Positions 45,909-63,938 of a stretch of 64,000 nt of DNA are shown piece by piece; within the stretch, counting starts at the first letter, position 1; each line of letters opens with the position of its first letter. Below the pieces are notes generated by a model, which saw only the letters and a program-made list of their open reading frames with translations, had not been told where the DNA came from and ran no database searches. A program made the position numbers and the translations under genes. The stretch is from positions 1 to 64,000 of the forward strand of contig NZ_JAFMZK010000010.1 of assembly GCF_029105185.1 (NCBI RefSeq). Reading direction: 5' to 3'. The stretch is from Aliiroseovarius sp. Z3. GTDB lineage: Bacteria > Pseudomonadota > Alphaproteobacteria > Rhodobacterales > Rhodobacteraceae.

Positions 45909-45909
45909 G

Positions 45910-46989
45910 ATGGCTTCCAAACACCAAGAAAACCGCTTCGCGGCCTATTCCACGCCAATTATTCTGGCGGCAATCCTCCTTGCCTTGGTTCTTCTTGTCG
46001 TTGCTTTCGGCGACAAGGCGCTTGCTCGGACAGCCGCGGAAACACTGATCCGCGTCACACTGGTGGTGGGCCTTTGGATCTTCGTCGGCAATTCCGGGGT
46101 CATCAGCTTCGGTCACGCGGGATACATGGCAGTCGGGGCTTATTGCTCTGCCTGGTTTACGCTGCGACCGCAGATGAAATCACTGTTTCTGCCCGATCTT
46201 CCGGGTTGGCTTCTTGAAGCGCAGTGGCCCGTCTTGCCCGCTGCCATTGCCGCCGGGCTGCTCGCTGCTGCCGTTGCCCTGCTGTCAGGGGCTGCAATCT
46301 TGCGACTCTCTGGGATTGCCGCGTCAATCGCGACATTCGCATTTCTGGCGATCATCAATACGGTCTACTCAAACTGGGAGGGGGTCACCGGGGCCACGTC
46401 CTCGGTTGTGGGTCTGCCGCGATATGTCGACCACTGGGTCGCACTTGCCTGGGCAGTTACAGCGATCCTTGCTGCCAATATCTACGCGAACTCCGCCTCT
46501 GGTCTGGCTCTGCGTGCCACGCGCGAAGACGAGGTTGCAGCCCGGGCGTCGGGCATCAACATGTATCGTCACCGGCTGCTGTCGCTGGTCATCTCGGGCT
46601 TCTTCACGGGCGTTTCGGGGGCACTTCTGGGCCATTCCATAGGGGTTCTCAATCCGGATAGTTTTTACCTTGGGATCACATTTATCTCACTGGCGATGCT
46701 TGTCGTGGGAGGGATCGGGAGCCTTTCTGGCGCGGTCATCGGCGTGATCGTGCTGTCGACGGTCATCGAACTTCTGGTTCGGGCCGAACAGGGTTTTGCA
46801 ATTGGCTCGGCCGAATTTGCCCTGCCTTCCGGCAGCCAGGAAATCCTGATCGGCCTGATCATGGTTCTTGTCCTGATTTTGCGCCCCTCGGGCCTGTCGG
46901 CAGGCCGTGAATTCAAACTGAGGCTTAAGCTGCCTCACAAAACGCTCGCAAATGAGCAAATCCCTTCCAACAGAGGAGAAATCAAATGA
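45910..46989 (+). CDS. livM: Branched-chain amino acid-type ABC permease (LivM-like)
   Basis: The start at ATG 45910, just after livH, gives 359 residues. LivM landmarks are GNSGVISFGHAGYMAVGAYC near residue 57, SGIAASIATFAFLAIINTVY, and LVVGGIGSLSGAVIGVIVLS. It ends in a basic cytoplasmic tail. It overlaps the binding-protein gene by four bases, so all five transporter genes are coupled or nearly so. Confidence 0.9.
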   Translation: MASKHQENRFAAYSTPIILAAILLALVLLVVAFGDKALARTAAETLIRVTLVVGLWIFVGNSGVISFGHAGYMAVGAYCSAWFTLRPQMKSLFLPDLPGWLLEAQWPVLPAAIAAGLLAAAVALLSGAAILRLSGIAASIATFAFLAIINTVYSNWEGVTGATSSVVGLPRYVDHWVALAWAVTAILAANIYANSASGLALRATREDEVAARASGINMYRHRLLSLVISGFFTGVSGALLGHSIGVLNPDSFYLGITFISLAMLVVGGIGSLSGAVIGVIVLSTVIELLVRAEQGFAIGSAEFALPSGSQEILIGLIMVLVLILRPSGLSAGREFKLRLKLPHKTLANEQIPSNRGEIK

Positions 46990-48158
46990 AGAAATTAGCT
47001 TATGCGGCAGTGCTTGCCGCGCTTGCTCTACCCGCCTGGGCAGAGGACGACATCACCGTTGGCTTCGCGATCGCACAATCTGGCTGGATGGAAGCCTATG
47101 ACACGCCAGCGGTTACCGCGGCGAGGATTCGCATTGAAGAAATCAATGCGAGCGGTGGCCTTCTGGGCCGTCAGATTGCCTGGGTAGAAGCAGACACCAA
47201 AACGGACCGCGATCAGTCTGCCAGGGCAGGCCTTCAAGTTATTGATGAGGGTGCCGACATGATGGTGGTGAGTTGCGATTACGACTTCGGCGCCCCGGCC
47301 GCGCTGTCGGCGGAAGCGCAAGGTATGGTTTCGTTCTTCCTGTGCGCCGAGGATGTCAAAGCTGGCATCCAGGGGGTGGGGCCCAACGCCTTCTCGGGAT
47401 CGGTGTTGGCGGCGGTTCAAGGCGCAACGATGGCAGAATGGAGCCACGCCACGCGCGAGGCCCGCACCGGTTACGTGCTTCTCGACACAACAATCGAATA
47501 CAACAAAGGCATCTGCACCGGGTTTGACTGGATGTTCCCGACACTCGACGGAACTGAAATAGTTGGTCGGGACACGTTCAAGAATGGCGATGCTTCGATC
47601 GCCAGCCAGATTACCCGGATCAAGGCATTGGAGCAGGAGCCGGATGTTATCATGCTGTGCTCCTATATCCCCGGCGCTGCCTCGGCGGTGCGTCAAATTC
47701 GAGCAGCCGGTATCAACTCACTTATCCTCAATGGATCAGCGGTTGACGGTTCTTACTGGCTGGATGCCGCACCTAACCTTTCAGGGTTTGCTGTCCCTGT
47801 TCAGGGGTCAATCTACGGCGATGATCCGCGGCCGGAGGTCGAGGCCTTCAACGCAGCATATGAAGCCGCAACCGGCGCACGCCCAGCCAGCCAATATGCT
47901 TATCCGGGCTACGTTCTTATCGACCTTTGGGCCAAGGCTGTTGAACGTGCGGGAACGCTTGACGGCGCGGCTGTAACTGCCGAACTCGAACAGATGCAAA
48001 ACGAGCCGACAGCATTCGGACCGCGCACCTTCACCAGTGAGTTGCACCACCAAAACTCGGCGGAAATGCAAATTGTCGAGATTACCGATGGTTCGCCTGC
48101 TGTGGTGGGAAGCTGGACGATAAGTCAGCCTGTTCCGCTCGATGTGCTGTTGCGGTAA
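46986..48158 (+). CDS. ABC transporter substrate-binding protein (type 1 fold, LivK/amide-like)
   Basis: The 390-residue periplasmic protein has a 19-residue signal peptide ending LPAWA. The Leu/Ile/Val-binding protein fold is visible in ITVGFAIAQSGWMEAYDTPA, RIEEINASGGLLGRQIAWVE, GADMMVVSCDYDFGAPAALS, and DGTEIVGRDTFKNGDASIAS. A binding-protein gene last in the operon is unusual, since it is normally the most expressed. The ligand is unknown, but the upstream hydantoinase genes point to a cyclic amide or ureide. Confidence 0.87.
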   Translation: MKKLAYAAVLAALALPAWAEDDITVGFAIAQSGWMEAYDTPAVTAARIRIEEINASGGLLGRQIAWVEADTKTDRDQSARAGLQVIDEGADMMVVSCDYDFGAPAALSAEAQGMVSFFLCAEDVKAGIQGVGPNAFSGSVLAAVQGATMAEWSHATREARTGYVLLDTTIEYNKGICTGFDWMFPTLDGTEIVGRDTFKNGDASIASQITRIKALEQEPDVIMLCSYIPGAASAVRQIRAAGINSLILNGSAVDGSYWLDAAPNLSGFAVPVQGSIYGDDPRPEVEAFNAAYEAATGARPASQYAYPGYVLIDLWAKAVERAGTLDGAAVTAELEQMQNEPTAFGPRTFTSELHHQNSAEMQIVEITDGSPAVVGSWTISQPVPLDVLLR

Positions 48159-48173
48159 CCAATGAATCTCTGG

Positions 48174-48197
48174 CGGCGATTGAATTTTTGATCGCCG
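48174..48197 (+). terminator. Weak hairpin after the hyu-liv operon
   Basis: CGGCGAT (48174-48180) and ATCGCCG (48191-48197) are perfect seven-base arms around a 10-base T-rich loop, 15 bases after the last stop. There is no T run downstream, so Rho-independent termination is uncertain. Confidence 0.4.
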
Positions 48198-48397
48198 TCA
48201 CACCAGATTTTCACAGACTTGATTGAAGAATTTATTGAGTGCAGCCCGGGTTGATTTTCCGAAGCACTCTAAAGGCCACGACGCGCCGTCATCCATCATC
48301 GTGTCAGGCAGGGCCGCAGTAAGTGAACGTATGCGCGGATTGCGCGATAAAAAATTTCGCTGGAAGGCCGTTCGATCCGGGCTTACCTTCCAGCATC

Positions 48398-48955
48398 ATG
48401 GATAAGCCAGACTCGATCCTTTCCCTTCTTCCGGCCCGCCTGAAACAAGCGCGGCAGGCGCAGGGGTTGTCGCTGGATGCGGTGGCCAAGCTGTCAGGCG
48501 TGTCGCGCAGCATGGTCAGCCAGATCGAGCGGGGCGAATCTTCGCCAACCGTATCGACCTTGTGGAACCTGACCCGCGCCCTGCAGGTGGATTTCGCTGG
48601 GCTTTTGGAAGAACAGGCGGGCAGTCGGATCGAAGTGTTGCGCGTCGATGAGGTGCCGACGATCGAAAATCATGGGGACGGTTGCACGATCCGCATTCTG
48701 TCGCCACCGGAAGACGCGGGGCGTCACGAGGTCTATGAATTGCGGTTTGCCGATGGGGGCATGCTGGAGTCAGAGCCGCATGCCTGTGGCACGAAAGAGA
48801 ACCTGACAGTGATCGAGGGCGTATTGACCGTGACCAGCGGCGATGCGTCGAACCGTTTGAACACTGGCGAGACAGCCCGCTACGCGGCGGATGTGCCGCA
48901 CCGGTTGCAGGCCGTCGGGCAGGCGCGGGCGTTTCTTGTCGTCAAAGGTGTTTGA
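48398..48955 (+). CDS. XRE family regulator with C-terminal cupin domain
   Basis: ATG 48398 gives 185 residues. A Cro/C1 helix-turn-helix occupies about residues 12-67 (LSGVSRSMVSQIERGESSPT) and a cupin small-molecule pocket about residues 110-183 (ESEPHACGTKENLTVIEGVL, then GETARYAADVPHRLQ). Such proteins control adjacent catabolic genes. It reads towards kbl-tdh with 94 bases between. A dyad TAACGGA-N6-TCCGTTA-like site lies in that gap and again before the opine-dehydrogenase gene, so both may be targets; this is inference. Confidence 0.85.
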   Translation: MDKPDSILSLLPARLKQARQAQGLSLDAVAKLSGVSRSMVSQIERGESSPTVSTLWNLTRALQVDFAGLLEEQAGSRIEVLRVDEVPTIENHGDGCTIRILSPPEDAGRHEVYELRFADGGMLESEPHACGTKENLTVIEGVLTVTSGDASNRLNTGETARYAADVPHRLQAVGQARAFLVVKGV

Positions 48956-48996
48956 CTGGCCCTGAACCGGTTGCCCGGCTTGAGTTATCCCGTATT

Positions 48997-49016
48997 GCGG
49001 AATGTTATCCGTTATA
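48997..49016. promoter_or_regulatory. Candidate dyad operator upstream of kbl-tdh (copy 1)
   Basis: GCGGAATGTTATCCGTTATA contains the dyad CGGA-N6-TCCG. Its reverse complement TATAACGGATAACATTCCG matches TATAACGGATGACATTCCG at 55941-55959 in 18 of 19 bases. It lies 34-53 bases before the kbl start, a position suited to promoter control. Confidence 0.6.
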
Positions 49017-49049
49017 GTAGCAAGATCGCGAAAATCAGAGGAGCACCCC

Positions 49050-50237
49050 ATGTCTGACCGTTTTCTCACCGATCTGAAATCCACGCTCGCAGGGATCGAG
49101 GCCGACGGCCTGATGAAGCGCGAACGTCTGATCACGTCACCGCAGGGGGCCGAAATCTCGGTGGGGGGGCAAGAGGTTATCAACTTGTGCGCCAACAATT
49201 ATCTGGGGCTGGCCGATCATCCCGACTTGATCCGTGCCGCGCGTGACGTGATGGACGACAAGGGGTTCGGCATGGCCTCGGTCCGGTTCATCTGCGGCAC
49301 GCAGGATTTGCACCGGGAGCTGGAGCAGAAGCTGGCGGCGTTTCTGGGCAAGGACGATTCGATCCTGTTTGCGGCGTGTTTCGATGCGAATGGCGGGTTG
49401 TTTGAACCGCTGTTGGGACCAGAGGATGCGATTGTCTCGGACGCGCTGAACCATGCCTCGATCATCGACGGGATACGGCTGTGCAAGGCGCGGCGTTTTC
49501 GGTACGCGAACAACGACATGGGTGATCTTGAGGCGAAGCTGAAAGAGGCGCGCGAGGGCGCGGCGCGGCATGTGATGATCGCGACCGATGGCGTCTTTTC
49601 GATGGATGGGTATCTGGCCAACCTGCCGGAAATCACGCGATTGGCGCGGGAATATGATGCTGTGGTGATGGTGGATGATTGCCACGCGACCGGATTCATG
49701 GGGCCGCGCGGGGCGGGGACGCCGGACCATTTTGGCGTCGATGTGGACATTCTGACCGGCACCTTGGGCAAGGCTTTGGGTGGCGCGCTTGGCGGCTATA
49801 TCGCCGGGCCGCAACCGGTGATCGACCTGCTTCGCCAGCGGGCGCGGCCTTACCTGTTTTCGAACGCGCTGCCTCCGTCGATTGTCGCAGCGGGGCTTGA
49901 GGCGATCCGGCTGGTTGAAGAGGGCATCGAACTGCGCACCCGTCTGTTCGAAAACGCGCGCTATTGGCGCGACGGGTTAAGCAAGCTGGGTTTCGATCTG
50001 CTGGACGGTGAGCATCCGATCATCCCGGTGATGCTGGGCGAGGCGCCTTTGGCGCAGAAGATGGCGGCCGGTTTGTTTGACGAAGGCGTCTATGTGTCGG
50101 GCTTCTTCTATCCGGTGGTGCCGCATGGAAAGGCGCGCATTCGCACCCAGATGAGCGCCGCGCTGACCACCGGCCAGCTTGACCGCGCGCTGACCGCCTT
50201 CGCCAAGGTCGGTCGCGATTTGGGAGTGATCAAATGA
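49050..50237 (+). CDS. kbl: Glycine C-acetyltransferase (2-amino-3-ketobutyrate CoA ligase)
   Basis: ATG 49050 follows AGAGGAGCA and gives 395 residues, near the E. coli length (398). It has the alpha-oxoamine synthase fold with PLP-binding Lys241 ([16 protein letters not shown]), [17 protein letters not shown] with the cofactor-contact Asp, and [17 protein letters not shown]. It splits 2-amino-3-ketobutyrate with CoA into glycine and acetyl-CoA. Coupled with tdh by an ATGA overlap, it completes the threonine degradation pathway. Confidence 0.95.
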
Positions 50238-51280
50238 GCCTGCCAAACACGATGAAAGCCCTGGAAAAATCCAAGCCCGAGGAAGGGCTTTGGATGGTGC
50301 AAGCGCCGGTGCCGGAAATCGGCCCGGATGACGTTCTGATCCGCATCAACGCCACCGGCATTTGCGGCACGGATATCCACATCTGGAATTGGGACGAATG
50401 GGCCGAAGCCACGGTCCCGGTGCCGATGATCACGGGGCACGAGTTTGCGGGCGAGATCGTCGAGCTTGGCCGCAATGTGACCGGGCTTGAGATCGGGCAG
50501 CGGTGTTCGGGCGAAGGCCATGTGGTCGGCACGGAAAGCCGCCAAAGCCGGTCAGGCAAGTTCCATCTTGATCCCGGCACGCGGGGGATCGGCGTGAATG
50601 TGCAGGGGGCGTTTGCCGAATACCTGCGGCTGCCTGCGTTCAACGTGGTGCCTCTGCCCGATGATATTCCGGACGAGATCGGCGCGATCCTCGACCCGCT
50701 GGGCAATGCTGTTCACACGGCGCTGAGCTTCGATCTGCTGGGCGAGGATGTGTTGATCACCGGCGCGGGGCCAATTGGCATCATGGCCGCTGCGGTGGCC
50801 CGTCATGCGGGCGCGCGGCATGTGGTGATCACCGACATCAACCCCGACCGGCTGAAGCTGGCGGAACATGTCTGCCCCAATATCCGCACCGTGGATGTCA
50901 CCCGCGAAGACTTGCGGGACGTGATCCACGAGCTGGGCATGAAACAGGGCTTCGATGTCGGGTTGGAAATGTCGGGCAGCCAGCAGGCGCTGGACCAGAT
51001 GGTTGAAAGCCTGATCATGGGCGGCAAGATCGCACTTCTGGGTATTCCGCCGGGCAAGTCCCCGGTCGACTGGTCGCGTATCGTGTTCAAGGCGATCACC
51101 ATCAAGGGCGTCTATGGCCGCGAGATGTTTGAAACCTGGTACAAGATGATCGCGATGCTGCAAAACGGGCTGGACGTAAGCCGGGTGATCACCCATCGCA
51201 TGGGCGTGGACGAATTCAAGGACGGCTTTGCCGCAATGAAATCCGGCCTGTCGGGCAAAGTGGTGCTGAACTGGCGGTGA
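50234..51280 (+). CDS. tdh: L-threonine 3-dehydrogenase
   Basis: The 348-residue medium-chain dehydrogenase has catalytic-zinc ligands in [17 protein letters not shown] and [18 protein letters not shown]-binding [20 protein letters not shown], and [14 protein letters not shown]. The lobe that normally holds a structural zinc through four cysteines (CGHCRNC...C in E. coli) is replaced by [20 protein letters not shown] with no cysteine. The rest is full length. It oxidises threonine to 2-amino-3-ketobutyrate for Kbl. Confidence 0.93.
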
Positions 51281-51293
51281 AGTCCAGAAGGGG

Positions 51294-51758
51294 TTATCGC
51301 AGCGGGATCGGGCGCTGTTCCTCGATCGCCTCCATCGCGAAATAGGATGTGACGGTCTCAAGCTCGATATTCCCGATCAGGCGCTTATAGACATCGTCGT
51401 AACCGGCCATGTTGCTGACCACGATTTTCAGCAGGTAGTCGTATTCACCGCCGATGCGGAAAAAGTCGATTACTTCCGGGATGGCAGAGACATGGTTGCG
51501 GAACTGGCGCAGCCAATCGGATGAATGATGCCGCGTCTTGATCAGTGAAAAGACAACGAAGCCACCGCCCAGTTTCTCGCGGTCAATCACCACGGTGCGG
51601 TTTCGAATCGCACCCTTGGCCTCCAACGCCTTGAGCCGCCGCCAACAGGCGTTTTGCGACAGACCGACCTTGTCGGCCAACGCCCGCTGGGATTGTGCGG
51701 CGTCGCGTTGAAGCTCTTCCAGGATGCGATAGTCAAATTGATCGAATTTAGGGGCCAT
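51294..51758 (-). CDS. Lrp/AsnC family transcriptional regulator
   Basis: The 154-residue protein has an N-terminal helix-turn-helix (LADKVGLSQNACWRRLKALE) and a RAM/AsnC ligand-binding domain with VIDFFRIGGEYDYLLKIVV. Members sense amino acids. It converges with tdh (14-base gap) and is divergent from the class V aminotransferase gene 101 bases away, which is the likely target along with itself. Confidence 0.88.
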   Translation of the reverse strand: MAPKFDQFDYRILEELQRDAAQSQRALADKVGLSQNACWRRLKALEAKGAIRNRTVVIDREKLGGGFVVFSLIKTRHHSSDWLRQFRNHVSAIPEVIDFFRIGGEYDYLLKIVVSNMAGYDDVYKRLIGNIELETVTSYFAMEAIEEQRPIPLR

Positions 51759-51859
51759 AAAACGATTATATGACCCAAAATACTAATTTCAATGGTAAAG
51801 AACTGTGAAGATTTTTGAAAATTTTGCGTCATGATGGTTGGAAGCAATCAGAGGATAAC

Positions 51860-53320
51860 ATGACGGCTCTCGATGATTTTAAGGTGGCGCTGAAAAGTGC
51901 CGATATTCACGAACAGATCCGCAAGGGGCTGATCGGTGAAGACGCAAAGATTGATGGGCCGTTTGGGTCAAAGCCGTTGATTTATGCTGACTACGTCGCG
52001 TCTGGGCGGGCGCTGTCGCAGGTCGAAGATTTCATCCGTGACCGTGTATTGCCCTATTATGCGAACACCCACACGCAAGCGTCGTTCTGCGGTGAGTACA
52101 TGACCAAACTGCGCGAAGCCGCACGGGCCGAGATTGCCCGCCTGACCGGCGCAGGACCGGGCATGAGCGTGGTTTTCACGGGGGCGGGGTCGACCGCCGG
52201 GATCAACCGGATCGTTGGCCTGCTGGACCTGGCCGCGATGGTGGCAGAGGGGCAACGGGTGGTGGTTCTGACCGGCCCGTATGAACATCATTCCAATATC
52301 CTGCCGTGGCGCGAGACCGGCGCCGAAGTCATCGAGATTGCCGAGGCGCAAGCTGGCGGTGTCGACATGAACGATCTGGCGCGGGCACTTTGGGCGGCCA
52401 AGGGTGCGGCGCAGATTGTCGGCACCTTTTCGGCGGCGTCCAACGTCACCGGTATTCTGACCGATGTAGATGCGGTGACGCGGATGCTGCGCAGCCATGG
52501 CGCACTGGCGATATGGGATTACGGCTGCGCCGGTCCCTATTGCGAGATGGACATGAAGCACGGCAGCGATGCCCAGAAAGATGCCATCGTATTTTCGGTT
52601 CACAAATTTCCCGGCGGTCCCGGATCCAGCGGCGTCGCGGTGATCCGAGACGAGATCGCCCGCCGTGCCACGCCGACTCTCCCCGGCGGCGGCACGGTCA
52701 GTTTCGTGTCGCCCTGGGGGCATGTCTACTCCGACAGCCTTGCAGCGCGCGAGGAGGGTGGCACGCCGAACGTGATCGGCGATATTCGCGCCGCATTGGC
52801 AATGCTGGTGAAAGAGGCGCTGGGGCAGGACTGGCTGGACCAGCGGCAAGCCGCACTTCGGGCGCGGGCGTTGAAGGTCTGGTCGGCGAATGACCGCATT
52901 CAGGTGTTGGGCAAACCCGAAGCAGACGCGCTGCCGATTTTTTCCTTTCGCGTGCGGGACGGGCAGGGCGCGCAGATACATCACCAGTTCTTTACCCGGC
53001 TGCTGAGCGACCTGACCGGTGTGCAGGCGCGGGGGGGCTGTGCCTGTGCCGGGCCTTACGGTCACCGGCTTTTGGGTCTGGGCAAGGCCGATTCCGATGC
53101 CACTATGGCGGCTTTGGAACTGGGCGAAGAAACCGCCAAGCCCGGTTGGATACGATTGAACCTTTCCGCCTTGATGACGGACGAAAAGGCAGATTTGGTC
53201 GTTCAGGCGGTGGACGATCTGGCCCGGATCGCTCAAGATTATGCGGCACAGTACAACGTCGATACCAGTACCGCCCGTTTCAAAGCCCAAGCCTTACCCG
53301 AGGACACGCTTGCTTCATAA
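51860..53320 (+). CDS. Class V aminotransferase-fold PLP enzyme (cysteine desulfurase-like)
   Basis: The start at ATG 51860 (AGAGGATA upstream) gives 486 residues. FSVHKFPGGPGSSGVAVI contains the PLP Lys, VLTGPYEHHSNILPWRETGA the class V His, and IWDYGCAGPYCEMDMKHG the cofactor Asp region. A late GGCACAGPYGHRLLG holds cysteines where desulfurases of the NifS/SufS type have theirs. At about 80 residues longer than SufS, it is a distinct subgroup. Reaction unknown: desulfuration, lyase or transaminase chemistry are all possible. It is the first gene before the monooxygenase-opine cluster. Confidence 0.82.
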   Translation: MTALDDFKVALKSADIHEQIRKGLIGEDAKIDGPFGSKPLIYADYVASGRALSQVEDFIRDRVLPYYANTHTQASFCGEYMTKLREAARAEIARLTGAGPGMSVVFTGAGSTAGINRIVGLLDLAAMVAEGQRVVVLTGPYEHHSNILPWRETGAEVIEIAEAQAGGVDMNDLARALWAAKGAAQIVGTFSAASNVTGILTDVDAVTRMLRSHGALAIWDYGCAGPYCEMDMKHGSDAQKDAIVFSVHKFPGGPGSSGVAVIRDEIARRATPTLPGGGTVSFVSPWGHVYSDSLAAREEGGTPNVIGDIRAALAMLVKEALGQDWLDQRQAALRARALKVWSANDRIQVLGKPEADALPIFSFRVRDGQGAQIHHQFFTRLLSDLTGVQARGGCACAGPYGHRLLGLGKADSDATMAALELGEETAKPGWIRLNLSALMTDEKADLVVQAVDDLARIAQDYAAQYNVDTSTARFKAQALPEDTLAS

Positions 53321-53395
53321 CAAAACACTGCACTGACCGCATCAGCGCGGATCGATCAGGACGTGACGGACCACGACACTTGAAGGACAACCAAT

Positions 53396-54862
53396 ATGAC
53401 ACATGACACAGAGTCCCCGATAGACGGCCAAGGGCTACCGGTATTGGAGGCGCGGCTGCGCGAGGATCTGAAGTTCCTGTGCTGGCCGGGCAAGGACTGG
53501 GTGCCAGCCCGCGACGGGGTCAGCGATGTGGTGATCATCGGCGGTGGCATGTGCGGTATGGTGGCGTGGTTGGCGCTGAAGACCGGGGGCATTCACAACA
53601 TGCGGGTGCTGGATCGCAGCCCCGAGGGGCTGGAAGGCCCGTGGCTGACCTATGCGCGGATGGAAACGCTGCGCTCGCCCAAGGAGCTGACAGGCCCGGC
53701 CTTTGGTCACGGCGCGTTGAGTTTTCAGGCGTGGTATCGTGCGCAGTTCGGCACCGAAAAATGGGACACGCTGGACAAGATTCCGCGCCCGATGTGGATG
53801 GAATACCTGCAGTGGTATCGGAAGGTGTTGAGCATTCCGACCGAGAACGGCGTGTCGGTCGATCTGGTTGAACCCGAGGGGGATTTGCTCCGCCTACATC
53901 TTTCGGGGGCCAAGGAAAAGTCGATCCTGTGCCGCAAGCTGGTTTTCGCAACGGGCCGGGATGGCACCGGGCAGCCGAATATTCCCGGATTTGTGCAGGA
54001 TCTGGACCGCAAATACTGGGCACATAGTGCAGACGAGATCGACTTCACCGCGCTGAAAGGCAAGCGTGTGGCCGTGGTTGGCGTGGGCGCGTCTGCCGTG
54101 GACAACGCTGCCGAGGCGCTGGAACATGGTGCCGCCGAGGTGCGCCATCTGATCCGCCGCAAGGAAATGCCGACGATCAACAAGATGATGGGGATCGGCT
54201 CGTTCGGGTTCACCGCCGGTTATGCCAGCCTGCCGGATGAATGGCGCTGGCGTTTCATGCAGTATTCCTTTGCGACCCAAACGCCACCGCCGCATGGTTC
54301 AACCAACCGGGTCAGCCGCCATCCCAACGCCCATTTCCACTTTGGCAAGGCAGTGCAAACGACGGTCGAGACGAACGGAGCGGTTACGGTCGGGTTTGCC
54401 GATGGCACGTCCTATGACGCTGATTTCGTCATCCTTGGGACCGGTTTCACCATCGACCCCCTGTCGCGGACCGAGTTTGGCGATGCGGCGACCAATATCC
54501 TGCTGTGGCAAGATGTTTACACTCCGCCCGCGGACGAACCTTCGCGCGATTTGGGGCGGTTCCCGTATCTCAACGACGATTTCACCTTCCGCGAAAAGGT
54601 GCCGGGCACAGCGCCGTGGCTCTCGAACGTCTATTGCTTCAACTACGGTGCATCGGCCAGCCTGGGCAAGGTGTCGGGCGACATTCCGGGGATTTCGGAA
54701 GGGGCAAACTGGATGGCGCGCGAGATTGCGGCGAAGCTGTATGTCGAGGATGTCTCTGAACATTGGCAAGCGATGCTGGACTACGACACGCCGGAGCTGG
54801 ATGGCAGCGAATGGATGCCGACCGACCTGATCACGGAAAGTGAGAAGGGGGAGGTTGCCTGA
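53396..54862 (+). CDS. FAD/NAD(P)-dependent monooxygenase-like oxidoreductase
   Basis: The 488-residue cytoplasmic protein has an FAD motif VVIIGGGMCGMVAWLALKTG near residues 43-62 and a second dinucleotide motif VAVVGVGASAVDNAAEALEH near residue 224. GTGFTIDP near the end matches the flavin-containing monooxygenase ATG/GTG signature. Such enzymes hydroxylate or Baeyer-Villiger-oxidise N- or S-containing or ketone substrates. It is 75 bases after the PLP enzyme, and its last base overlaps the next gene, so the following CMD genes are coupled to it. Confidence 0.85.
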   Translation: MTHDTESPIDGQGLPVLEARLREDLKFLCWPGKDWVPARDGVSDVVIIGGGMCGMVAWLALKTGGIHNMRVLDRSPEGLEGPWLTYARMETLRSPKELTGPAFGHGALSFQAWYRAQFGTEKWDTLDKIPRPMWMEYLQWYRKVLSIPTENGVSVDLVEPEGDLLRLHLSGAKEKSILCRKLVFATGRDGTGQPNIPGFVQDLDRKYWAHSADEIDFTALKGKRVAVVGVGASAVDNAAEALEHGAAEVRHLIRRKEMPTINKMMGIGSFGFTAGYASLPDEWRWRFMQYSFATQTPPPHGSTNRVSRHPNAHFHFGKAVQTTVETNGAVTVGFADGTSYDADFVILGTGFTIDPLSRTEFGDAATNILLWQDVYTPPADEPSRDLGRFPYLNDDFTFREKVPGTAPWLSNVYCFNYGASASLGKVSGDIPGISEGANWMAREIAAKLYVEDVSEHWQAMLDYDTPELDGSEWMPTDLITESEKGEVA

Positions 54863-55341
54863 TGGCTTTGGACACAACCGCGCTGCGACAGGCAGGTGTT
54901 GCAACCGATGGCACCTTGGCGGCTGCCATCGACGGGCGCGCCACCATCTTCGAAATGACGCAGGCCGCCGAAGAGGCCGTTCTGCGCCCACAGGACGCAG
55001 GCCCATGGTCGCATGAGTTGCGCGCGGCATTGGCGGCGCGGATTGCGGTGCTGAACGGTGAAACAGACCTGGCCACGCGATACGGCCAAGGGGCAGGTGC
55101 GTTCGCTGATCTGGCTGATCCGGCCGATGACGGGGCTGCACAGGGTTTGACCGAGGTTGTCGGCTTCATGGACAAGGTGGCGGCAGACACGCGCAATGTC
55201 GCGGCGGTTGATATCTTGGGCCTGCAAGCGGCAGGGGTGGCGGATGCCGACATCGTGCGGCTGGCAGAGTTGAATGCGTTCCTGGCCTATCAGCTCCGGG
55301 TGATTGCCGGGTTGCGGTTGATGAAAGGGGCGTTTGCATGA
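54862..55341 (+). CDS. CMD-associated helical protein (carboxymuconolactone decarboxylase-like, lacks CxxC)
   Basis: This 159-residue all-helical protein has KVAADTRNVAAVDILGLQAA and ADADIVRLAELNAFLAYQLR, which resemble the second half of CMD/AhpD proteins, but no cysteine redox pair is present. It is coupled at both ends: to the monooxygenase by one base and to the true CMD protein by ATGA. In other bacteria paired CMD proteins of this sort are encoded together, so it probably forms a complex with the next gene product. Its exact function is unknown. Confidence 0.7.
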   Translation: MALDTTALRQAGVATDGTLAAAIDGRATIFEMTQAAEEAVLRPQDAGPWSHELRAALAARIAVLNGETDLATRYGQGAGAFADLADPADDGAAQGLTEVVGFMDKVAADTRNVAAVDILGLQAAGVADADIVRLAELNAFLAYQLRVIAGLRLMKGAFA

Positions 55342-55928
55342 CCAAGGTGATCACCAAATTCACCCGCAATGTCCCGCATTGGCAACCACGCGTGACTCCG
55401 GTGGACCTGAAAGAAGCGAGCGATGAGCAGTTGGATGCGCTGAAGGTCACGCCGTCAAACACCAAAGTGTCGGAATACGTTTTGACGCTGGCGCATGATG
55501 TGGAAAGCCTGAAGGTGCGTTCGCCGCTGTTTAATGCCATTATGTATGACAAGGGCGGGATGAGCCGCGCCGAGCGGGAGTTGGGTGCGCTTGGGGCCTC
55601 GATGGTCAATCATTGCATCTATTGCGCCGCCGTTCACGCCGCACGCCATGCGCAGCTTGAGAAATCGACTGACGTGACGGACAAGCTGTTCCGCGACGGT
55701 GCCAAGGCGGATTTGAGCACGCGGGACCGGGCGATTTTCGACTTTGCGGTGGCCTTATCCGAAGCTCCGTCACGGGCCGCGCCAGAGCATATGGACGCGC
55801 TGAAAGCCGCCGGGCTGGACGAGGCCGAGGTGCTGGACCTGATCCTGTCAGCGGCGCTTTTTGGCTGGGCAAACAGGCTGATGCATGTGCTGGGGGATCC
55901 GGTGCGCGTTGGCGAAACTAGAAACTGA
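55338..55928 (+). CDS. Alkylhydroperoxidase/CMD family peroxidase-related protein
   Basis: The 196-residue protein has the redox motif MVNHCIYCAAVHAARHAQLE, with the CxxC pair and a downstream His that together form the AhpD-type active site. ADLSTRDRAIFDFAVALSEA and DEAEVLDLILSAALFGWANR are the rest of the fold. It may remove peroxide formed by the flavin monooxygenase two genes upstream, or act directly on the pathway intermediate. It is followed by a dyad operator and the opine dehydrogenase gene. Confidence 0.87.
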   Translation: MTKVITKFTRNVPHWQPRVTPVDLKEASDEQLDALKVTPSNTKVSEYVLTLAHDVESLKVRSPLFNAIMYDKGGMSRAERELGALGASMVNHCIYCAAVHAARHAQLEKSTDVTDKLFRDGAKADLSTRDRAIFDFAVALSEAPSRAAPEHMDALKAAGLDEAEVLDLILSAALFGWANRLMHVLGDPVRVGETRN

Positions 55929-55940
55929 CCTATTTTCCTA

Positions 55941-55963
55941 TATAACGGATGACATTCCGTTAA
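55941..55963. promoter_or_regulatory. Candidate dyad operator upstream of the opine-dehydrogenase operon (copy 2)
   Basis: TAACGGA-TGACAT-TCCGTTA (55943-55962) has perfect seven-base arms. The first 19 bases, TATAACGGATGACATTCCG, match the reverse complement of the site before kbl with one difference. It lies 47-69 bases before the start, so it probably drives a second promoter inside the long gene set. Confidence 0.65.
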
Positions 55964-56009
55964 GATGGTGTAAGCTGGGGTTATAAGGACACGTTGTGAA
56001 AGGGTGGAT

Positions 56010-57107
56010 GTGAGCAAGACGGTAGGACTGGCGGGCGCAGGCTCGATCGCGTTTGGAACGGCGGCGTTGTTGCACAAGGCAGGCCATGATCCGATGCTGT
56101 GGTCGCCCTCGGGCAAGGGCACGGCAGAGCTTGCTGATGGGGCTGTCCTTACTGCCGTTGGTGCTGTCGAGACATCGTTGACACCCCGCATCGCCGATAG
56201 TGCCGCGACGCTGGCGCGCGATAACGACGTCTTGATGATCGCGCTTCCCGGATACGGTCATAAGGCTGTGCTGGACGCTCTGGTCCCGCATATTGAACCG
56301 CGCCATCATGTGATCATCTCGTCCCACGCATCGCTTGGCGCTGTCTATCTGATGCAGAAGTTGGCTGCGCGAGGCGTGACCGTTCCGATTACCGCGTGGG
56401 GCACCACCGTCTGCACCGGCAGACGCCAATCGGGAACCGAGGTAAAGGTGAACACGGTGCGTAGCCGCGTCGACCTTTGCACCGTGCCGGAAGATCGGTC
56501 TGACGAGGCGTTGCGCCTGTGCCAAACGCTGTTTGGCGACCGGTTCCAACCCCGCGACGGGCTTTTGGCCATTTCGTTGTCGAACCTGAACCCGCAGAAC
56601 CATATGGGGATCGCCTTGGGCAACATCACCCGGATGGAGCAGGGCGAGACATGGTCGCAAGGTCAGAACGTGACCCCCAAGGTGGGCCGATTGCTGGAAG
56701 AACTGGACCGCGAACGGCTGGAGATCGCGCAGGCGCTGGGGCTGGAGGTCAAAACGATCTTTGAGCATTTTCACCTGTCGTTTCATGTGCCTGTCGCCTC
56801 GATTTCCAAGATGAACCAGCAGATGCATGAACAGGGCAATGGCGGCGTTGGTCCGGCCACTGCCGACAGCCGTTATGTGACCGAAGACGTGCCCTATGGG
56901 CTGGTGCTGACCGCAGCACTTGGGCGGTTGACCGGCCACCCGGCAAAGCTGCACGAGGCCGGTATACAGATTTTCTCGGCCATGTATGGCAGGGATTTCG
57001 AAGCCGAGAATGAAATTCTGAAGGCGCTGGACCTTGACCGCTTCGACCTTGATGATCTGAAGCAGGCAGCCCGAACCGGCATGCTGTGCCAACCCGCCAG
57101 CGCCTGA
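56010..57107 (+). CDS. NAD/NADP octopine/nopaline dehydrogenase family protein
   Basis: I take GTG 56010 as the start because AAAGGG lies five bases before it; an in-frame GTG at 56004 is possible. The 365-residue protein has the Rossmann motif VGLAGAGSIAFGTAALLHKA, VLMIALPGYGHKAVLDALV, and AISLSNLNPQNHMGIALGNI. The last contains the NPxxH active-site sequence of opine dehydrogenases. These interconvert opines (amino acid-keto acid secondary amines) with their parts using NAD(P)H. It is linked to a polyamine-type importer, so the compound is probably taken up and oxidised. Confidence 0.87.
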   Translation: MSKTVGLAGAGSIAFGTAALLHKAGHDPMLWSPSGKGTAELADGAVLTAVGAVETSLTPRIADSAATLARDNDVLMIALPGYGHKAVLDALVPHIEPRHHVIISSHASLGAVYLMQKLAARGVTVPITAWGTTVCTGRRQSGTEVKVNTVRSRVDLCTVPEDRSDEALRLCQTLFGDRFQPRDGLLAISLSNLNPQNHMGIALGNITRMEQGETWSQGQNVTPKVGRLLEELDRERLEIAQALGLEVKTIFEHFHLSFHVPVASISKMNQQMHEQGNGGVGPATADSRYVTEDVPYGLVLTAALGRLTGHPAKLHEAGIQIFSAMYGRDFEAENEILKALDLDRFDLDDLKQAARTGMLCQPASA

Positions 57108-57165
57108 GTACAACAAGATAAAAACCAAGAAGAAACCAACCACAAACCCAACAAGGAGACACCAA

Positions 57166-58275
57166 ATGTCAAAACTGATTTATAATCGTCGCCGCTTCCT
57201 GGGCACAGCCGCCGCCACTGGCGCGGCGCTGGCGTCGCCCTTTTATCTGCGTCGCGCTGCGGCCCAGTCGGGTGGCGAGGTGAATATCTGGACCTACAAT
57301 GATTTCGTACCCGCTGCGTTCAAAGAGCAGTTCGAGGCCGAGACCGGCATCAAGGTCAACGTGCGTCTGGTTGACGACCAGGGCAAACAGTTCAATCTGC
57401 TGGCCGCCGAGCAGCCGAACCCGACCGTTGATATCATGACGGTTGCCGGTCACCGCTTCCTGCAGTTCATCGACAGCGACCTTCTGGCGCCCTTGGATAC
57501 GGATCGGCTGACCAATTGGGGCAACATCAACCCGACCTTCTCGGAAAGCGATTGGTCGACGATCAACGGCAACAAATGGGGTGCGCCAATCCTGTCTGGA
57601 ATGGAGGTTCTGTCCTACAACACGGAACTGGTCAGCGAAGAAGAGGCGTTGACCTGGGACACGCTGTTTTCCGAGAAATACAGCGGTCAGACCGCCTATA
57701 TCATTCAGGATATGATGTCGATCGTGATGCTGAAGATGGGGTATGACGGCAACATGGTTGCCTATCTGGATGACCCGGACAAGGCCGCCCAGATCGTCGA
57801 GGAAGCCAAGCAGTTCCTGATCGAGAAAAAGCCGCTGGTGCGCAAGTACTATGATGGTGGGGCAGAGTTCCAGCAAATGATGGTGAACCAGGACATCGCG
57901 TTGGGCCATTCCTGGAACGGTCCGGCTGCGGCGCTGATCAATGACGGCTTCCCGCTGGCAATGACAATCCCGCGCGAGGGTTCGTATGGCTTTGTTTACA
58001 CCTACAACATCGCCAACAACGCACCGAATGCCGACAACGCCTATACCTTCCTTGATGCGATCCTTTCTTCGCCTGAGATTGGCGCGGCAATGACCAAAGC
58101 GTCAGGCTTCATCTCGACCTACAAGGACGCGTCGCAGCATCTGAACGACCTTGAGAAGAAGTCGACCTCGTTCCCGGAAGAGCAGCTGGCAAACCTGCAG
58201 TTCTTCCGCGCCGAGGCAAACGAGATGAAATACGGCCTTCTCGACCCTGCGGTCGAGGCGATCAAAGCCGCCTGA
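57166..58275 (+). CDS. ABC transporter substrate-binding protein, spermidine/putrescine-type
   Basis: The 369-residue periplasmic protein has a twin-arginine signal (NRRRFLGTAAATGAALASPF). The mature start GGEVNIWTYNDFVPAAFKEQ is typical of PotD/PotF-like proteins, and ALGHSWNGPAAALINDG and YTFLDAILSSPEIG follow. Tat export suggests it folds before export. The canonical polyamine-binding acidic residues cannot be confirmed by eye, and the neighbouring opine-type enzyme argues for an amino-acid conjugate. A strong AAGGAG ribosome site lies before the ATG. Confidence 0.87.
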   Translation: MSKLIYNRRRFLGTAAATGAALASPFYLRRAAAQSGGEVNIWTYNDFVPAAFKEQFEAETGIKVNVRLVDDQGKQFNLLAAEQPNPTVDIMTVAGHRFLQFIDSDLLAPLDTDRLTNWGNINPTFSESDWSTINGNKWGAPILSGMEVLSYNTELVSEEEALTWDTLFSEKYSGQTAYIIQDMMSIVMLKMGYDGNMVAYLDDPDKAAQIVEEAKQFLIEKKPLVRKYYDGGAEFQQMMVNQDIALGHSWNGPAAALINDGFPLAMTIPREGSYGFVYTYNIANNAPNADNAYTFLDAILSSPEIGAAMTKASGFISTYKDASQHLNDLEKKSTSFPEEQLANLQFFRAEANEMKYGLLDPAVEAIKAA

Positions 58276-58300
58276 TATCCTTTAGGAAACCTGTTCCTGT

Positions 58301-58320
58301 CCCGCCCAGTGCGGGGCGGG
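58301..58320 (+). terminator. GC-rich hairpin between binding-protein and permease genes
   Basis: CCCGCCC (58301-58307) and GGGCGGG (58314-58320) pair perfectly around a 6-base loop, 26 bases after the binding-protein stop. There is no T run. It is the third such element found directly after a binding-protein gene in this window. Confidence 0.65.
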
Positions 58321-58347
58321 GGCCCTGACCTTCCGAAAGACCATCGA

Positions 58348-59334
58348 ATGACCTATGACGCATCCTCGCAACGGGGCAAGCGCGCTGAGACGCTTGAGAC
58401 CTCTGGCCGGACCTTTTGGGGCCGATTGGTGGAATGGGGGCCGTATCATACGCTGATGCGGCTGGCGACAGCCTCGCCCCGCCGCCAGTTCCTGATCCTC
58501 GCCGCCTTTCCGATCCTCTGGGTGCTGACCCAGCATCTTGGCCCAATGTTGCAGATGTTGCGGGTGTCGCTGACCGATGCCTATCCGGTGGCACCGGGGG
58601 TCGAACAGCACTTCACGCTGGACAACTACGCCCGTTTCTTTGGCGACAGCATCTTCTGGATGCCGTTCTTTCGAACGCTGGCCTTTGCCGGGGTGTTCAC
58701 CTTCTGCACGCTGATCATCACCTATCCGGTGGCCTACTTTCTGGCCCGCCACGTCAGCCGCAAGAACCAGATGCTGTTTCTGCTGCTTCTGCTGATCCCG
58801 TTTTGGGTGGGCGAGATCGTGCGCACCTATGCGATCATGATCCTGCTGGGCAACACGGGCGCGGTAAACATGGTTCTGAAATGGGTGGGTCTGATCGACC
58901 GGCCGATCCCCTTTATGTACACCAGCTTCTCTATGGGCGTGGGCATTGTCTATCTGACCGCGCTCTACATGCTGCTGCCCTTGTACTCCGCGCTGGAAAA
59001 ATTGCCGCAGAGCATGAATGAAGCCGCCGCCGATTTGGGCGCCGGGGCGTGGACGCGGTTCCGCCGCGTGTCGCTTCCCTTGACCATCGAAGGGATCTCG
59101 TCTGGCTGTACGCTGGTGTTCCTGATTTCGACCGGGTTCTATGCGACGCCGGTTCTGTTGGGCGGACCGTCCACCACGGTGTTTGCCGAAACCATCGCGG
59201 GCTTCTTCCATGTGGCCGGAGATGAATGGCCCACGGGTGCCGCTTTTGCCACGATCATGTTTGCGGCGGCATTGGTGATCACGGCGACGTTCCAGAGAGT
59301 GATGAATTCCTTGCGGAAGGGAGAACGGAAATGA
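58348..59334 (+). CDS. ABC permease, PotB-like
   Basis: ATG 58348 is preferred to an upstream start inside the hairpin; the product is 328 residues. It has about six helices after a longer-than-usual cytoplasmic N-terminus of some 45 residues. The EAA loop is MNEAAADLGAGAWTRFRRVS, and FLLLLLIPFWVGEIVRTYA is typical of the PotB/PotH family. The stop overlaps the next permease start. Confidence 0.88.
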   Translation: MTYDASSQRGKRAETLETSGRTFWGRLVEWGPYHTLMRLATASPRRQFLILAAFPILWVLTQHLGPMLQMLRVSLTDAYPVAPGVEQHFTLDNYARFFGDSIFWMPFFRTLAFAGVFTFCTLIITYPVAYFLARHVSRKNQMLFLLLLLIPFWVGEIVRTYAIMILLGNTGAVNMVLKWVGLIDRPIPFMYTSFSMGVGIVYLTALYMLLPLYSALEKLPQSMNEAAADLGAGAWTRFRRVSLPLTIEGISSGCTLVFLISTGFYATPVLLGGPSTTVFAETIAGFFHVAGDEWPTGAAFATIMFAAALVITATFQRVMNSLRKGERK

Positions 59335-60134
59335 ATGATCGTCCAGAACTGTTTCGCGGCAACCGGATCTTCCTGAGCTGCACCTATTGGGCCTTTGTCC
59401 TTTATGTCTTCGTGCCGCTGTTCCTGATGATCCTGATGGGGTTCAAGGACTCGAAATTCATCGGCTTCCCTATCAAATCCTGGACATTGGATTGGTACAC
59501 GGGCGTATTCGCCGATGCCGAGGTTCTGTCGACCTTTGGCTATTCGGTTGCTATCGCGGTTCTATCAACGCTGATTTCGGTGATTGTCGGCACATGGATC
59601 GCGGTGCTGCTTGAGGGGCGCAAATTCCTTGGCCGAACTGCGATCTTCGGAATGACCGTGCTGCCTGCGCTGGTGCCGGGGATCATCTCGGCCATCGCCT
59701 TCCGTATCTATGCCCGCTATCTGGGGATCGAGCCGGGTATGGGCGCGATTGTCTGGGCGCATGCCGTCCACAACGTGCCCTTCGTGGTGCTGGTGGTGAT
59801 GGCGCGCCTGTCGACCCTGCCGAAAAGCCAGATTGAAGCCGCGCGTGACCTTGGCGCCGACCCGCTGGTGTCATTCATCCGGATCACCTTGCCTTATCTG
59901 GTACCGGCCATTCTGGGCGCGTCGATCTTCTGCCTGCTTCTATCGTTTGACGATTTCGTCCGCTCGTTCTTCCTGGGTGGATACGAACCGACATTGCCGG
60001 TTTTGATCTTTGCAAAACTTCGTTCGGGTATGAGCCCCGAGATTAACGCCATCGCTACTGTTGCGCTGATCCTGACTGCCGCCATCGGCATCTGGGCCGA
60101 GCGTTTCACCCGCCGCATGAATAAGGAAAGCTAA
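59331..60134 (+). CDS. ABC permease, PotC-like
   Basis: Starting at ATG 59331 (GGGAGAACGG before it, ATGA overlap), the 267-residue protein has six helices and the EAA loop IEAARDLGADPLVSFIRITL. VLPALVPGIISAIAFRIYAR and FDDFVRSFFLGG are PotC/PotI features. It forms the channel with the preceding permease. Confidence 0.9.
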   Translation: MNDRPELFRGNRIFLSCTYWAFVLYVFVPLFLMILMGFKDSKFIGFPIKSWTLDWYTGVFADAEVLSTFGYSVAIAVLSTLISVIVGTWIAVLLEGRKFLGRTAIFGMTVLPALVPGIISAIAFRIYARYLGIEPGMGAIVWAHAVHNVPFVVLVVMARLSTLPKSQIEAARDLGADPLVSFIRITLPYLVPAILGASIFCLLLSFDDFVRSFFLGGYEPTLPVLIFAKLRSGMSPEINAIATVALILTAAIGIWAERFTRRMNKES

Positions 60135-60137
60135 GCC

Positions 60138-61223
60138 ATGACCGATCAGACACCACTTGTCCGCATGGAAGGATTGTCGAAGCATTTCGGCCCGACCGTC
60201 GCACTGGACAACCTGACCCTGGACATCGCGCAAGGTGAGTTCGTGACCTTCCTTGGCCCGTCGGGCTGCGGCAAGTCCACAACGCTGCGCATCCTTGGGG
60301 GCTTCGAACGCCCGACCACGGGTCGCGTGATCCTTGATGGAGAGGATGTGACCAACCAGCCCCCCGAAAAGCGCCACGTGAACATGGTGTTTCAGGACTA
60401 TGCGCTGTTTCCACATATGACCGTGGCGCAGAACATTTCCTTTGGCTTGGAGCTGAAGGGCATGGGCAAGGCCGACATCAAGCGCCGATCGGACGAGATC
60501 ATGTCGTTCCTTGAACTTGACGCCTTTGGTGACCGCTATCCGGTGCAACTGTCCGGTGGGCAACGCCAACGTGTGGCGCTGGCTCGTGCGCTGGCGCCCG
60601 ATCCGGCCCTGTTGCTGTTGGACGAACCTTTGGGCGCGCTGGACGCAAAGCTGCGCGGTCAGGTTCAGCAGGAACTGAAGTCGATCCAGCGTCGCACCCA
60701 CAAGACGTTTTTCTTCGTGACCCATGATCAGGAAGAGGCACTGACCATGTCCGACCGGATCGTGGTGATGAACAAGGGTCGGGTCGAACAGGACGGCACG
60801 CCGGAAGAGCTGTATTTCCGCCCCGCCAGCCGCTTCGTGGCCGAGTTTATCGGCGAGACCAACCTGCTGTCGGGCCAGATGCGCGGCACCGAAGGCGACA
60901 AGGTGGTGATGGACTGGCACGGGGCGACCCTGATGGGCAAAGCCCCGGACACCCTGCCGGGCGAGGGGCAGCCGATCACCGCCTCGGTACGGTTGGAAAA
61001 GCTGGGCTTCCATGCCGAACGCCCACAGACTGGAAACGCGGTGCAGGGCCGTGTGGTGGGCAAGACCTTCCTTGGGTCGCGCATGGCGATGGAGATCGCA
61101 GTGGGCGATGGGGGCGATGCGCTGCTCAAGGCCTATGTGGATGCCGAAACCGGCCAGTCCGTTGGCAACGACCCGGTCTGGATCGGCTGGGAGGCGGATA
61201 ACATGGCGGTGCTGAACGACTGA
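60138..61223 (+). CDS. ABC transporter ATP-binding protein, PotA-like
   Basis: The 361-residue ATPase has Walker A GPSGCGKSTTLRILGG near residue 40, the signature QLSGGQRQRVALARAL, Walker B LLLLDEPLGALDAKLR, and FVTHDQEEALTMSDR. A TOBE domain follows from about residue 270. It lies three bases after the permease and completes the importer. Convergent glpR follows after 13 bases. Confidence 0.9.
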   Translation: MTDQTPLVRMEGLSKHFGPTVALDNLTLDIAQGEFVTFLGPSGCGKSTTLRILGGFERPTTGRVILDGEDVTNQPPEKRHVNMVFQDYALFPHMTVAQNISFGLELKGMGKADIKRRSDEIMSFLELDAFGDRYPVQLSGGQRQRVALARALAPDPALLLLDEPLGALDAKLRGQVQQELKSIQRRTHKTFFFVTHDQEEALTMSDRIVVMNKGRVEQDGTPEELYFRPASRFVAEFIGETNLLSGQMRGTEGDKVVMDWHGATLMGKAPDTLPGEGQPITASVRLEKLGFHAERPQTGNAVQGRVVGKTFLGSRMAMEIAVGDGGDALLKAYVDAETGQSVGNDPVWIGWEADNMAVLND

Positions 61224-61236
61224 CGAGGTGCGACAG

Positions 61237-62001: not shown

Positions 62002-62225
62002 ATGGTCGAGCGCAGATGCTTCCTGTTGTTTCCGAACGAAATTACAAGAAAACGAACGAAGCCGCAATTGTCTTACGCGCTTTTGCCGCGAATCGAAAGA
62101 ATGATGCGCTGATTCGGGCAGATTCTTGGGATCTGCACCCGAGAATCGAATATCCCAAGCGCTGATCCACCCAACTTAGCTGAAGAATGTGAGGTTAAAG
62201 CTCATATTTTTCAAATATCTACAAA

Positions 62226-62245
62226 TAACGAACATAAACGAAAAT
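62226..62245 (+). promoter_or_regulatory. Candidate GlpR operator between glpR and glpD
   Basis: TAACGAACATAAACGAAAAT contains AACGAACATA, one half of the E. coli-type GlpR operator, plus a second AACGAAA. Further AACGAACGAA (62051-62060) and CGAACGAA (62033-62040) copies lie near the glpR start. The 308-base divergent gap therefore holds sites at both ends. I see no gene in it. Confidence 0.5.
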
Positions 62246-62309
62246 ATGTAACTTTCTTTTTTCGGGTAAGCTGCTAGAAATGACTCCTACGCTGCACCTG
62301 GGGGGAACC

Positions 62310-63911: not shown

Positions 63912-63938
63912 GGGGCCATGCGTTAGCGGAGGACAAAC

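Follow-up and report, generated by a model that had tools for sequence, protein, structure and literature searches.

The locus and its two dyads

The window analyzed here, a 64,000-nucleotide stretch of the genome of Aliiroseovarius sp. Z3 (contig NZ_JAFMZK010000010.1, positions 1 to 64,000), carries kbl and tdh behind a gene for an XRE-cupin regulator, a divergent gene of the Lrp/AsnC family and a cluster of genes around an opine/octopine dehydrogenase-family gene (ODH) with an ATP-binding cassette (ABC) transporter (Table 1). Our subject is an inverted repeat, or dyad, that stands before kbl and again before ODH, and that genome comparison suggests to be the operator of the XRE-cupin protein.

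An earlier note on this DNA had reported that 55941-55959 matches the reverse complement of 48998-49016 over 19 bases with one mismatch, that both sites are centered on the dyad TAACGGA-N6-TCCGTTA, and that each lies shortly before a start codon, a coincidence it held to be very unlikely by chance. The match is as described, and so is the position of the dyads, which end 35 bases before the ATG of kbl at 49050 and 41 bases before the GTG of ODH at 56004. The shared dyad holds in full at ODH (14/14) but only in part at kbl (12/14), and the argument from chance was worded too strongly: pairs of 19-mers with at most one mismatch occur in the window as nine overlapping pairs at five separate places (0 to 2 pairs in eight first-order Markov controls), and two window hits to the dyad at up to three mismatches were equalled by 24 of 100 shuffles.

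With up to two mismatches allowed, the 12-base core AACGGA-N6-TCCGTT shows no enrichment in the genome (103 places versus 144 for a backwards control), and TAACGGA-N6-TCCG, which matches in 58 of the 198 family genomes, is mostly rarer per genome than its backwards control, such that the pattern by itself is no mark of a site. The window pair draws its significance from the fact that, with up to two mismatches allowed, the 14-base dyad occurs at only these two places in the 3,519,893-base genome (the backwards control occurs at 17, an imperfect comparison because the dyad arms contain stop trinucleotides and the control, having none, is not kept from coding DNA), together with the conservation of the dyad at orthologous promoters.

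Table 1. Genes and predicted operators of the XRE-cupin, kbl-tdh and ODH region (window coordinates)
Feature	Position	Strand	Remarks
XRE-cupin regulator gene	48398..48955	+	185 amino acids (aa); Pfam HTH_3 3.5e-17 and Cupin_2 1.5e-06
Predicted kbl operator	48995..49014	.	TTGCGGA-N6-TCCGTTA, 12/14; left arm TTGCGGA
kbl, glycine C-acetyltransferase	49050..50237	+	NF005394 631 bits, cut-off 460; ATG start
tdh, L-threonine 3-dehydrogenase	50234..51280	+	NF003808 537 bits, cut-off 380
Lrp/AsnC-family regulator, divergent	51294..51758	-	Pfam AsnC_trans_reg 8.2e-18
Class V aminotransferase/SufS-like pyridoxal phosphate (PLP) enzyme, ODH cluster gene 1	51860..53320	+	Pfam Aminotran_5 3.8e-40
FAD/NAD(P)-dependent oxidoreductase	53396..54862	+	Pfam Pyr_redox_3 3e-17
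CMD-domain protein (CMD1), Avi_7170-like	54862..55341	+	TIGR04029 60.5 bits, below cut-off 100.75
Peroxidase-related/AhpD-like protein (CMD2)	55338..55928	+	TIGR01926 193 bits, cut-off 81.8
Predicted ODH operator	55943..55962	.	Perfect dyad TAACGGATGACATTCCGTTA, TAACGGA-N6-TCCGTTA, 14/14
Opine/octopine dehydrogenase-family gene (ODH)	56004..57107	+	Pfam Octopine_DH 2.6e-36; GTG start, position approximate
ABC substrate-binding protein, polyamine/opine type	57166..58275	+	Pfam SBP_bac_8 2.5e-28
ABC permease, PotB-like	58309..59334	+	Under PotB cut-off
Second ABC permease	59325..60134	+	Open reading frame; start approximate; kept adjoining first permease in relatives
ABC ATPase	60138..61223	+	potA subfamily TIGR01187 361 bits, cut-off 355.6

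Conservation of the dyad at kbl promoters

We followed the dyad through 198 family genomes, each representing a different genus, of which 67 encode the XRE-cupin protein (E 1e-30) and 110 carry a total of 112 kbl genes (E 1e-130). Promoters were scored by their best dyad within 150 bases, and the dyad was taken as present at 11/14 or more. It precedes 44 of the 58 kbl genes that adjoin an XRE-cupin gene, 6 of the 10 located elsewhere in XRE-carrying genomes (these ten include two second kbl copies, both without a dyad) and none of the 44 in XRE-less genomes. In total, the dyad is found at 50/68 kbl genes with XRE-cupin in the genome versus 0/44 without it (Fisher test, 6e-17, uncorrected for kinship). 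Since kbl genes that are distant from the XRE gene in four genomes (G137, G031, G038, and G073) still bear the dyad, it is no by-product of adjacency. The kbl dyads of relatives are situated at -50 to -60.

At XRE-adjacent kbl genes, exact CGGA-N-TCCG shows a sharp optimum at spacers of 6 (30/58) and 5 (12/58) bases, both of which are missing from XRE-less genomes (0/44 each). In a logo of 48 sites, seeded on the exact core with the flanks left free, the outer T and A carry 1.4 to 1.6 bits and no spacer position exceeds 0.4 bits: the arms of the inverted repeat and the length of its spacer (6 or 5) are conserved, and the spacer sequence is not. Such a logo is the signature of a dimer-binding operator, with the XRE-cupin protein as its presumed occupant. 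On the best kbl tree, which is built on up to 180 aa and is weakly supported, we selected, shortest first, 18 non-overlapping pairs with the XRE-cupin gene in one member and not in the other; the dyad agrees with the regulator in 10 pairs, opposes it in none and ties in 8, and by dyad score 16 pairs go up, 1 goes down, and 1 is equal.

As a separate observation, a stretch with a half-conserved dyad is repeated in tandem several times, in near-identical form, in the kbl promoter region of G137 (locus L211).

Conservation of the dyad at ODH promoters

ODH occurs in 14 of the 198 genomes. The dyad precedes it in all five genomes with the arrangement of the window (XRE, kbl, tdh, Lrp, cluster) and in none of the other nine. 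A scan of named genomes yielded 115 ODH relatives, and we retained the 80 best; a clade at ≥83% identity comprises 18 of these plus the window. For XRE-cupin, 16 genomes were searched in full; in L216, L219, L229, and the window, its presence was read off the locus. Within the clade, 11 of 12 XRE-carrying members and 1 of 6 XRE-less members have an ODH dyad of at least 11 (Fisher test, 0.004, uncorrected for kinship; L228 left out), and the single XRE-less member that does (L254) has damage in both core arms. Outside the clade, 1 of 62 loci (among the best 80 of 115) reaches this score, and that match, in L275, lies inside the end of the XRE gene. The ODH dyads of clade relatives are located in the gap between CMD2 and ODH, which measures 33 to 97 bases in the clade; outside it, 20 of the 39 loci that could be measured have the two genes overlapping or at most 14 bases apart.

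Three Mameliella genomes lack kbl at the ODH locus and in its flanks (up to 10 kb) and have it next to XRE-cupin at another place; dyads are present at both the kbl and the ODH promoter, so the predicted link would work in trans. A relic of the site exists in an XRE-less Marivita (L226), which reads AAGGGGATGACATTCCACCA versus TAGCGGATGACATTCCGTTA in Mameliella (L224): the arms have decayed, and the inner TGACAT, which we read as a -35 element, is kept.

One record in the clade, L229 (JAFKDC010000009.1), is titled Enemella evansiae, an actinobacterium, but its locus is Rhodobacteraceae-like (kbl 91% and ODH 89% identical to the window); it is apparently mislabelled.

Promoter architecture

Reading by eye, the right arm of the window kbl dyad runs into a -10-like TATAGT (49013-49018), and the spacer of the ODH dyad contains a -35-like ATGACA (55949-55954), with a -10-like TAAGCT (55971-55976) following 16 bases on. 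Among the 68 kbl promoters of XRE-carrying genomes, two recurrent arrangements can be recognized. In class I, the right arm runs into a -10-like ATGNYA (31/68 promoters; the pattern matched 33, of which G121 and G178 were dropped as matches on the start codon). In class II, TTGAC follows some 2 bases after the end of the dyad (11 clear cases out of 16 matches, after removal of G193, G187, G010, and G037, where the motif is not behind the dyad, and of G027, which has no gap). Both patterns are absent from the 44 XRE-less kbl promoters. Many promoters hold two dyads: of 52 such pairs (each dyad ≥10/14), 26 are spaced by 35.0 to 36.0 bp and 9 by 15.5 to 20.0 bp, with the rest scattered.

Autoregulation by the XRE-cupin protein was considered and rejected, as a dyad of 11/14 or more stands within 200 bp before just 1 of 67 XRE genes. 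The 1.25 Mb of sequence surrounding the XRE genes of the 67 genomes also contain no further dyad of at least 12/14, and together these two results indicate a small and local regulon.

The XRE-cupin protein

The XRE-cupin protein joins an N-terminal helix-turn-helix (HTH) domain of the XRE type (HTH_3, 62.6 bits, cut-off 23) to a C-terminal cupin (Cupin_2, 28.2 bits, cut-off 27.2); its open reading frame also has a longer alternative GTG start at 48323. Across the 67 family orthologues, its recognition region SRSMVSQIER (residues 36-45) is conserved: S36, S38, M39, S41, E44, and R45 occur in 67/67, Q42 and I43 in 66/67, R37 in 64/67, and V40 in 58/67. The cupin residues E111, H128, E134, and H168 are likewise conserved in 67/67, which is compatible with a ligand or metal pocket. 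An AlphaFold model (mean predicted local distance difference test [pLDDT] 79, predicted template modelling score 0.53) confirms the domains, with an unreliable domain arrangement; residues 111-180 have block pLDDT values of 88 to 94, and Foldseek returned 1y9q (E 2.4e-18) and 6b8w, an XRE-cupin domain (TMt 0.86). More than half of all kbl genes in the family sample (58/112) lie within 2.5 kb downstream of an XRE-cupin gene on the same strand.

The ODH cluster and its relatives in other Alphaproteobacteria

For the PLP enzyme of the ODH cluster, a search of solved structures returned cysteine desulfurases, selenocysteine lyase, cysteine sulfinate desulfinase, and one aminotransferase entry, and no function was assigned. 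The sole solved relative found for ODH is 1bg6, N-(1-D-carboxylethyl)-L-norvaline dehydrogenase (1.9e-30). YdcS and PotD, the top NCBIfam matches of the substrate-binding protein, both fall under their cut-offs, and the second permease has no NCBIfam match at 1e-50. An Rfam scan of 44000-64000 for an RNA element gave no match.

The same parts assemble differently in other Alphaproteobacteria. In 18 loci (L256, L261, L262, L268, L270, L272, L274, L275, L277, L278, L282 to L284, L288, L289, and L291 to L293), an XRE-cupin gene (41 to 48% identity) sits between CMD2 and ODH; kbl-tdh directly follows ODH in 7 of them, 3 end just behind ODH, and 8 have no kbl there. Most of the genera in their record titles belong to the Rhizobiales (Aminobacter, Pseudochrobactrum, Shinella, and others). 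One cluster unites all parts, with an XRE-cupin protein at 57%, in two further loci, L276 (Paracoccus siganidrum) and L285 (titled Rhizobium albus). Alignment of the 18 Rhizobiales-type loci revealed no such dyad at ODH or kbl; in five of them (L270, L274, L275, L277, and L284), a common dyad-like sequence of 10-11/14 falls within the final codons of the XRE gene. The recognition region is changed in most Rhizobiales-type proteins (Q42E, E47N, S48A, and S49N, in 10 to 11 of 14 proteins). The XRE-cupin/ODH/kbl-tdh grouping thus recurs, apparently with a different operator.

Interpretation and alternative explanations

At the level of sequence, comparison establishes a conserved dyad that holds defined positions, tracks the XRE-cupin gene, and is nearly restricted to these promoters. 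We propose, with a probability of roughly 0.8, that TNNCGGA-N5/6-TCCGYYA serves a local XRE-cupin regulator as its operator; this regulator, which most likely represses until a ligand releases it, would control kbl-tdh and, in one clade, ODH and the ABC transporter. That the XRE-cupin protein is what binds the dyad appears very probable, and that it acts by repression is likely, if somewhat less secure. A dimer would bind the dyad at the kbl-tdh promoter and, in a single Rhodobacteraceae clade that includes the window organism, also at an extra promoter inside the ODH cluster, before ODH and the ABC transporter, and would block RNA polymerase at both. Release of the DNA would follow once the cupin pocket takes up a small molecule from threonine/glycine metabolism or from the ODH pathway; candidates are threonine, glycine, 2-amino-3-ketobutyrate, and an ODH-pathway compound, none of which is strongly preferred. 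Because the dyad runs into the -10 at kbl and lies across the -35 region at ODH, blocking of RNA polymerase is the most likely mode of action.

The earlier note had named the XRE-cupin protein as the best candidate ligand of the dyad, with Lrp as the alternative, had suggested following the dyad alongside the XRE-cupin gene at kbl and ODH orthologues, and had envisaged a regulon uniting threonine catabolism with the ODH pathway. The dyad does follow the gene at both sets of orthologues, which favors the XRE-cupin protein as the predicted ligand; the joint regulon stands as a prediction for one clade only, and Lrp is disfavored for reasons given below.

Several observations weigh against this proposal. 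A consensus promoter scan at both window dyads returned nothing, with no sigma-70 consensus, so the -10 and -35 assignments in the window derive from the reading by eye and from the count of promoter class patterns. Neither class pattern fits 22 of 68 promoters, among them the window kbl promoter (TCCGTTATAGTAG), which is class I by reading and, being one base off the pattern, is counted with the 22. In XRE-carrying genomes, 18 of 68 kbl promoters score below 11: 12 score 10, G187, G067, and G155 score 9, G004 and the second kbl of G186 score 8, and the second kbl of G188 scores 7. Restricting the tree comparison to well-supported branches leaves 3 pairs, which are too few, and the all-branch test is weaker. 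At ODH, four of the nine dyad-less family orthologues sit in XRE-carrying genomes. The closest named relative, an Aliiroseovarius (L214), has XRE-cupin and no ODH dyad, as do L230 and L235 outside the clade (ODH 79%). The same is true of L132 (G135), one of the four XRE-carrying genomes just counted, where kbl-tdh, Lrp, the whole ODH cluster, and XRE-cupin (62%) share one stretch, with the XRE gene at its far end, behind the ODH cluster and on the opposite strand; here, all parts are together yet the ODH dyad is missing, so proximity by itself does not bring the site.

Of the alternatives, the one that survives best, if still unlikely, is that the XRE-cupin protein binds the dyads as an activator or in a dual role, the distal dyad recruiting polymerase. 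Activation is also conceivable in the 11 clear class II promoters and would suit the frequent upstream second dyad (26 of 52 pairs at 35.0 to 36.0 bp) and the lack of a good -35/-10 pair at the window promoters, but it sits poorly with the 31/68 promoters whose right arm enters the -10-like ATGNYA and with an ODH dyad that spans a -35-like element. Moreover, two XRE-less clade members (L226 and L254) keep TGACAT in the ODH spacer with decayed arms, as expected of a promoter freed of a repressor (the other 4 of 6 show no such pattern), and the Pseudomonas aeruginosa XRE-cupins with determined regulons are inhibitors (PMC7901475).

It is considerably less probable that another regulator, co-inherited with XRE-cupin, recognizes the dyad. 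What comparative data of this kind show is association, but 58 kbl genes have the XRE-cupin gene directly upstream of them, and the dyad follows XRE-cupin also where kbl sits elsewhere.

Lower still is the chance that the Lrp-family protein (51294-51758) binds the dyads and links both operons. Its gene sits between the two operons and is often kept with the ODH cluster, and Lrp controls kbl-tdh in Escherichia coli. The gene persists, however, at 86 to 94% identity in XRE-less Vannielia litorea (L218), Phycocomes zhengii (L223), and Aliiroseovarius zhejiangensis (L227), whose kbl and ODH dyads are missing or decayed; L228, which has no XRE gene beside kbl (judged from the locus only), keeps it at 86%. 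It is this persistence where dyads are gone that disfavors Lrp. The divergent intergenic region between Lrp and the PLP enzyme (51759-51859) also has no dyad (best 8/14), and the front half of the ODH cluster may answer to Lrp instead. Finally, a chance match or recent copy of one stretch, for which the five window places with near-identical 19-mers and the lack of genome enrichment of the short core could be cited, is rejected as next to impossible, because orthologous promoters retain both sites with differing spacer sequences.

For the ODH cluster itself, we tentatively suggest that its PLP enzyme, flavoenzyme, two AhpD-like proteins, ODH, and ABC importer might form a catabolic pathway, not described so far, that feeds threonine, glycine, or a closely related compound into the Tdh-Kbl step, with a shared intermediate being sensed by the XRE-cupin protein. 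The pairing would then have been built in more than one way: by operators acting in trans in one Rhodobacteraceae clade, or as one physical cluster, with changed recognition residues, in other Alphaproteobacteria. The predicted shared operator ties the ODH cluster to threonine metabolism and thereby makes its function testable: the substrate can be sought among compounds leading to threonine, glycine, or 2-amino-3-ketobutyrate, with one regulator usable as a sensor in that search. More generally, threonine degradation in Rhodobacteraceae gains a specific predicted regulator, operator, and two-site regulon, and the gain and decay of the operator with its regulator offer a clean case of a pathway joining a local regulon.

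Comparison with known systems

We found no published description of this XRE-cupin/kbl-tdh/ODH regulon, in a search outside subscription journals and RegPrecise; the predicted regulon would be new, its kind of regulator is known, and the ODH pathway is uncharacterized. Over most of its length, the XRE-cupin protein has PuuR, the putrescine regulator of E. coli, as its top NCBIfam match, yet at 42.6 bits versus a cut-off of 211. The targets of PuuR differ from kbl-tdh and ODH. Lrp of E. coli shares the role in threonine degradation through its control of kbl-tdh but belongs to a different family, and the dyad does not follow Lrp.

A term search of PMC4344238 and PMC5343134 returned nothing on an XRE-cupin regulator. 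The gene for MgxR (Bxe_B3018) of Burkholderia lies near kbl and tdh, as does the XRE-cupin gene here, but MgxR is a TetR-family protein with the operator C(T/G)AGAA(T/C)GATC(G/A)TTCT(C/A)C (PMC4349456); both family and operator are unlike those of the XRE-cupin dyad, and MgxR was rejected as a known counterpart.

The closest functional relatives in print are the XRE-cupins of P. aeruginosa (PsdR, ErfA, PA0535, PA1359, PauR, and others), which PMC7901475 describes as local repressors whose palindromic operators lie in the core promoter, most of them having one or two targets that adjoin the regulator gene. The window-type protein differs from them in its targets (kbl-tdh plus ODH and the ABC transporter), in paired dyads often about 35 to 36 bp apart, and in the absence of a site upstream of its own gene. 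Like them, it combines an XRE HTH with a cupin and is predicted to use a palindromic operator at a target beside the regulator gene.

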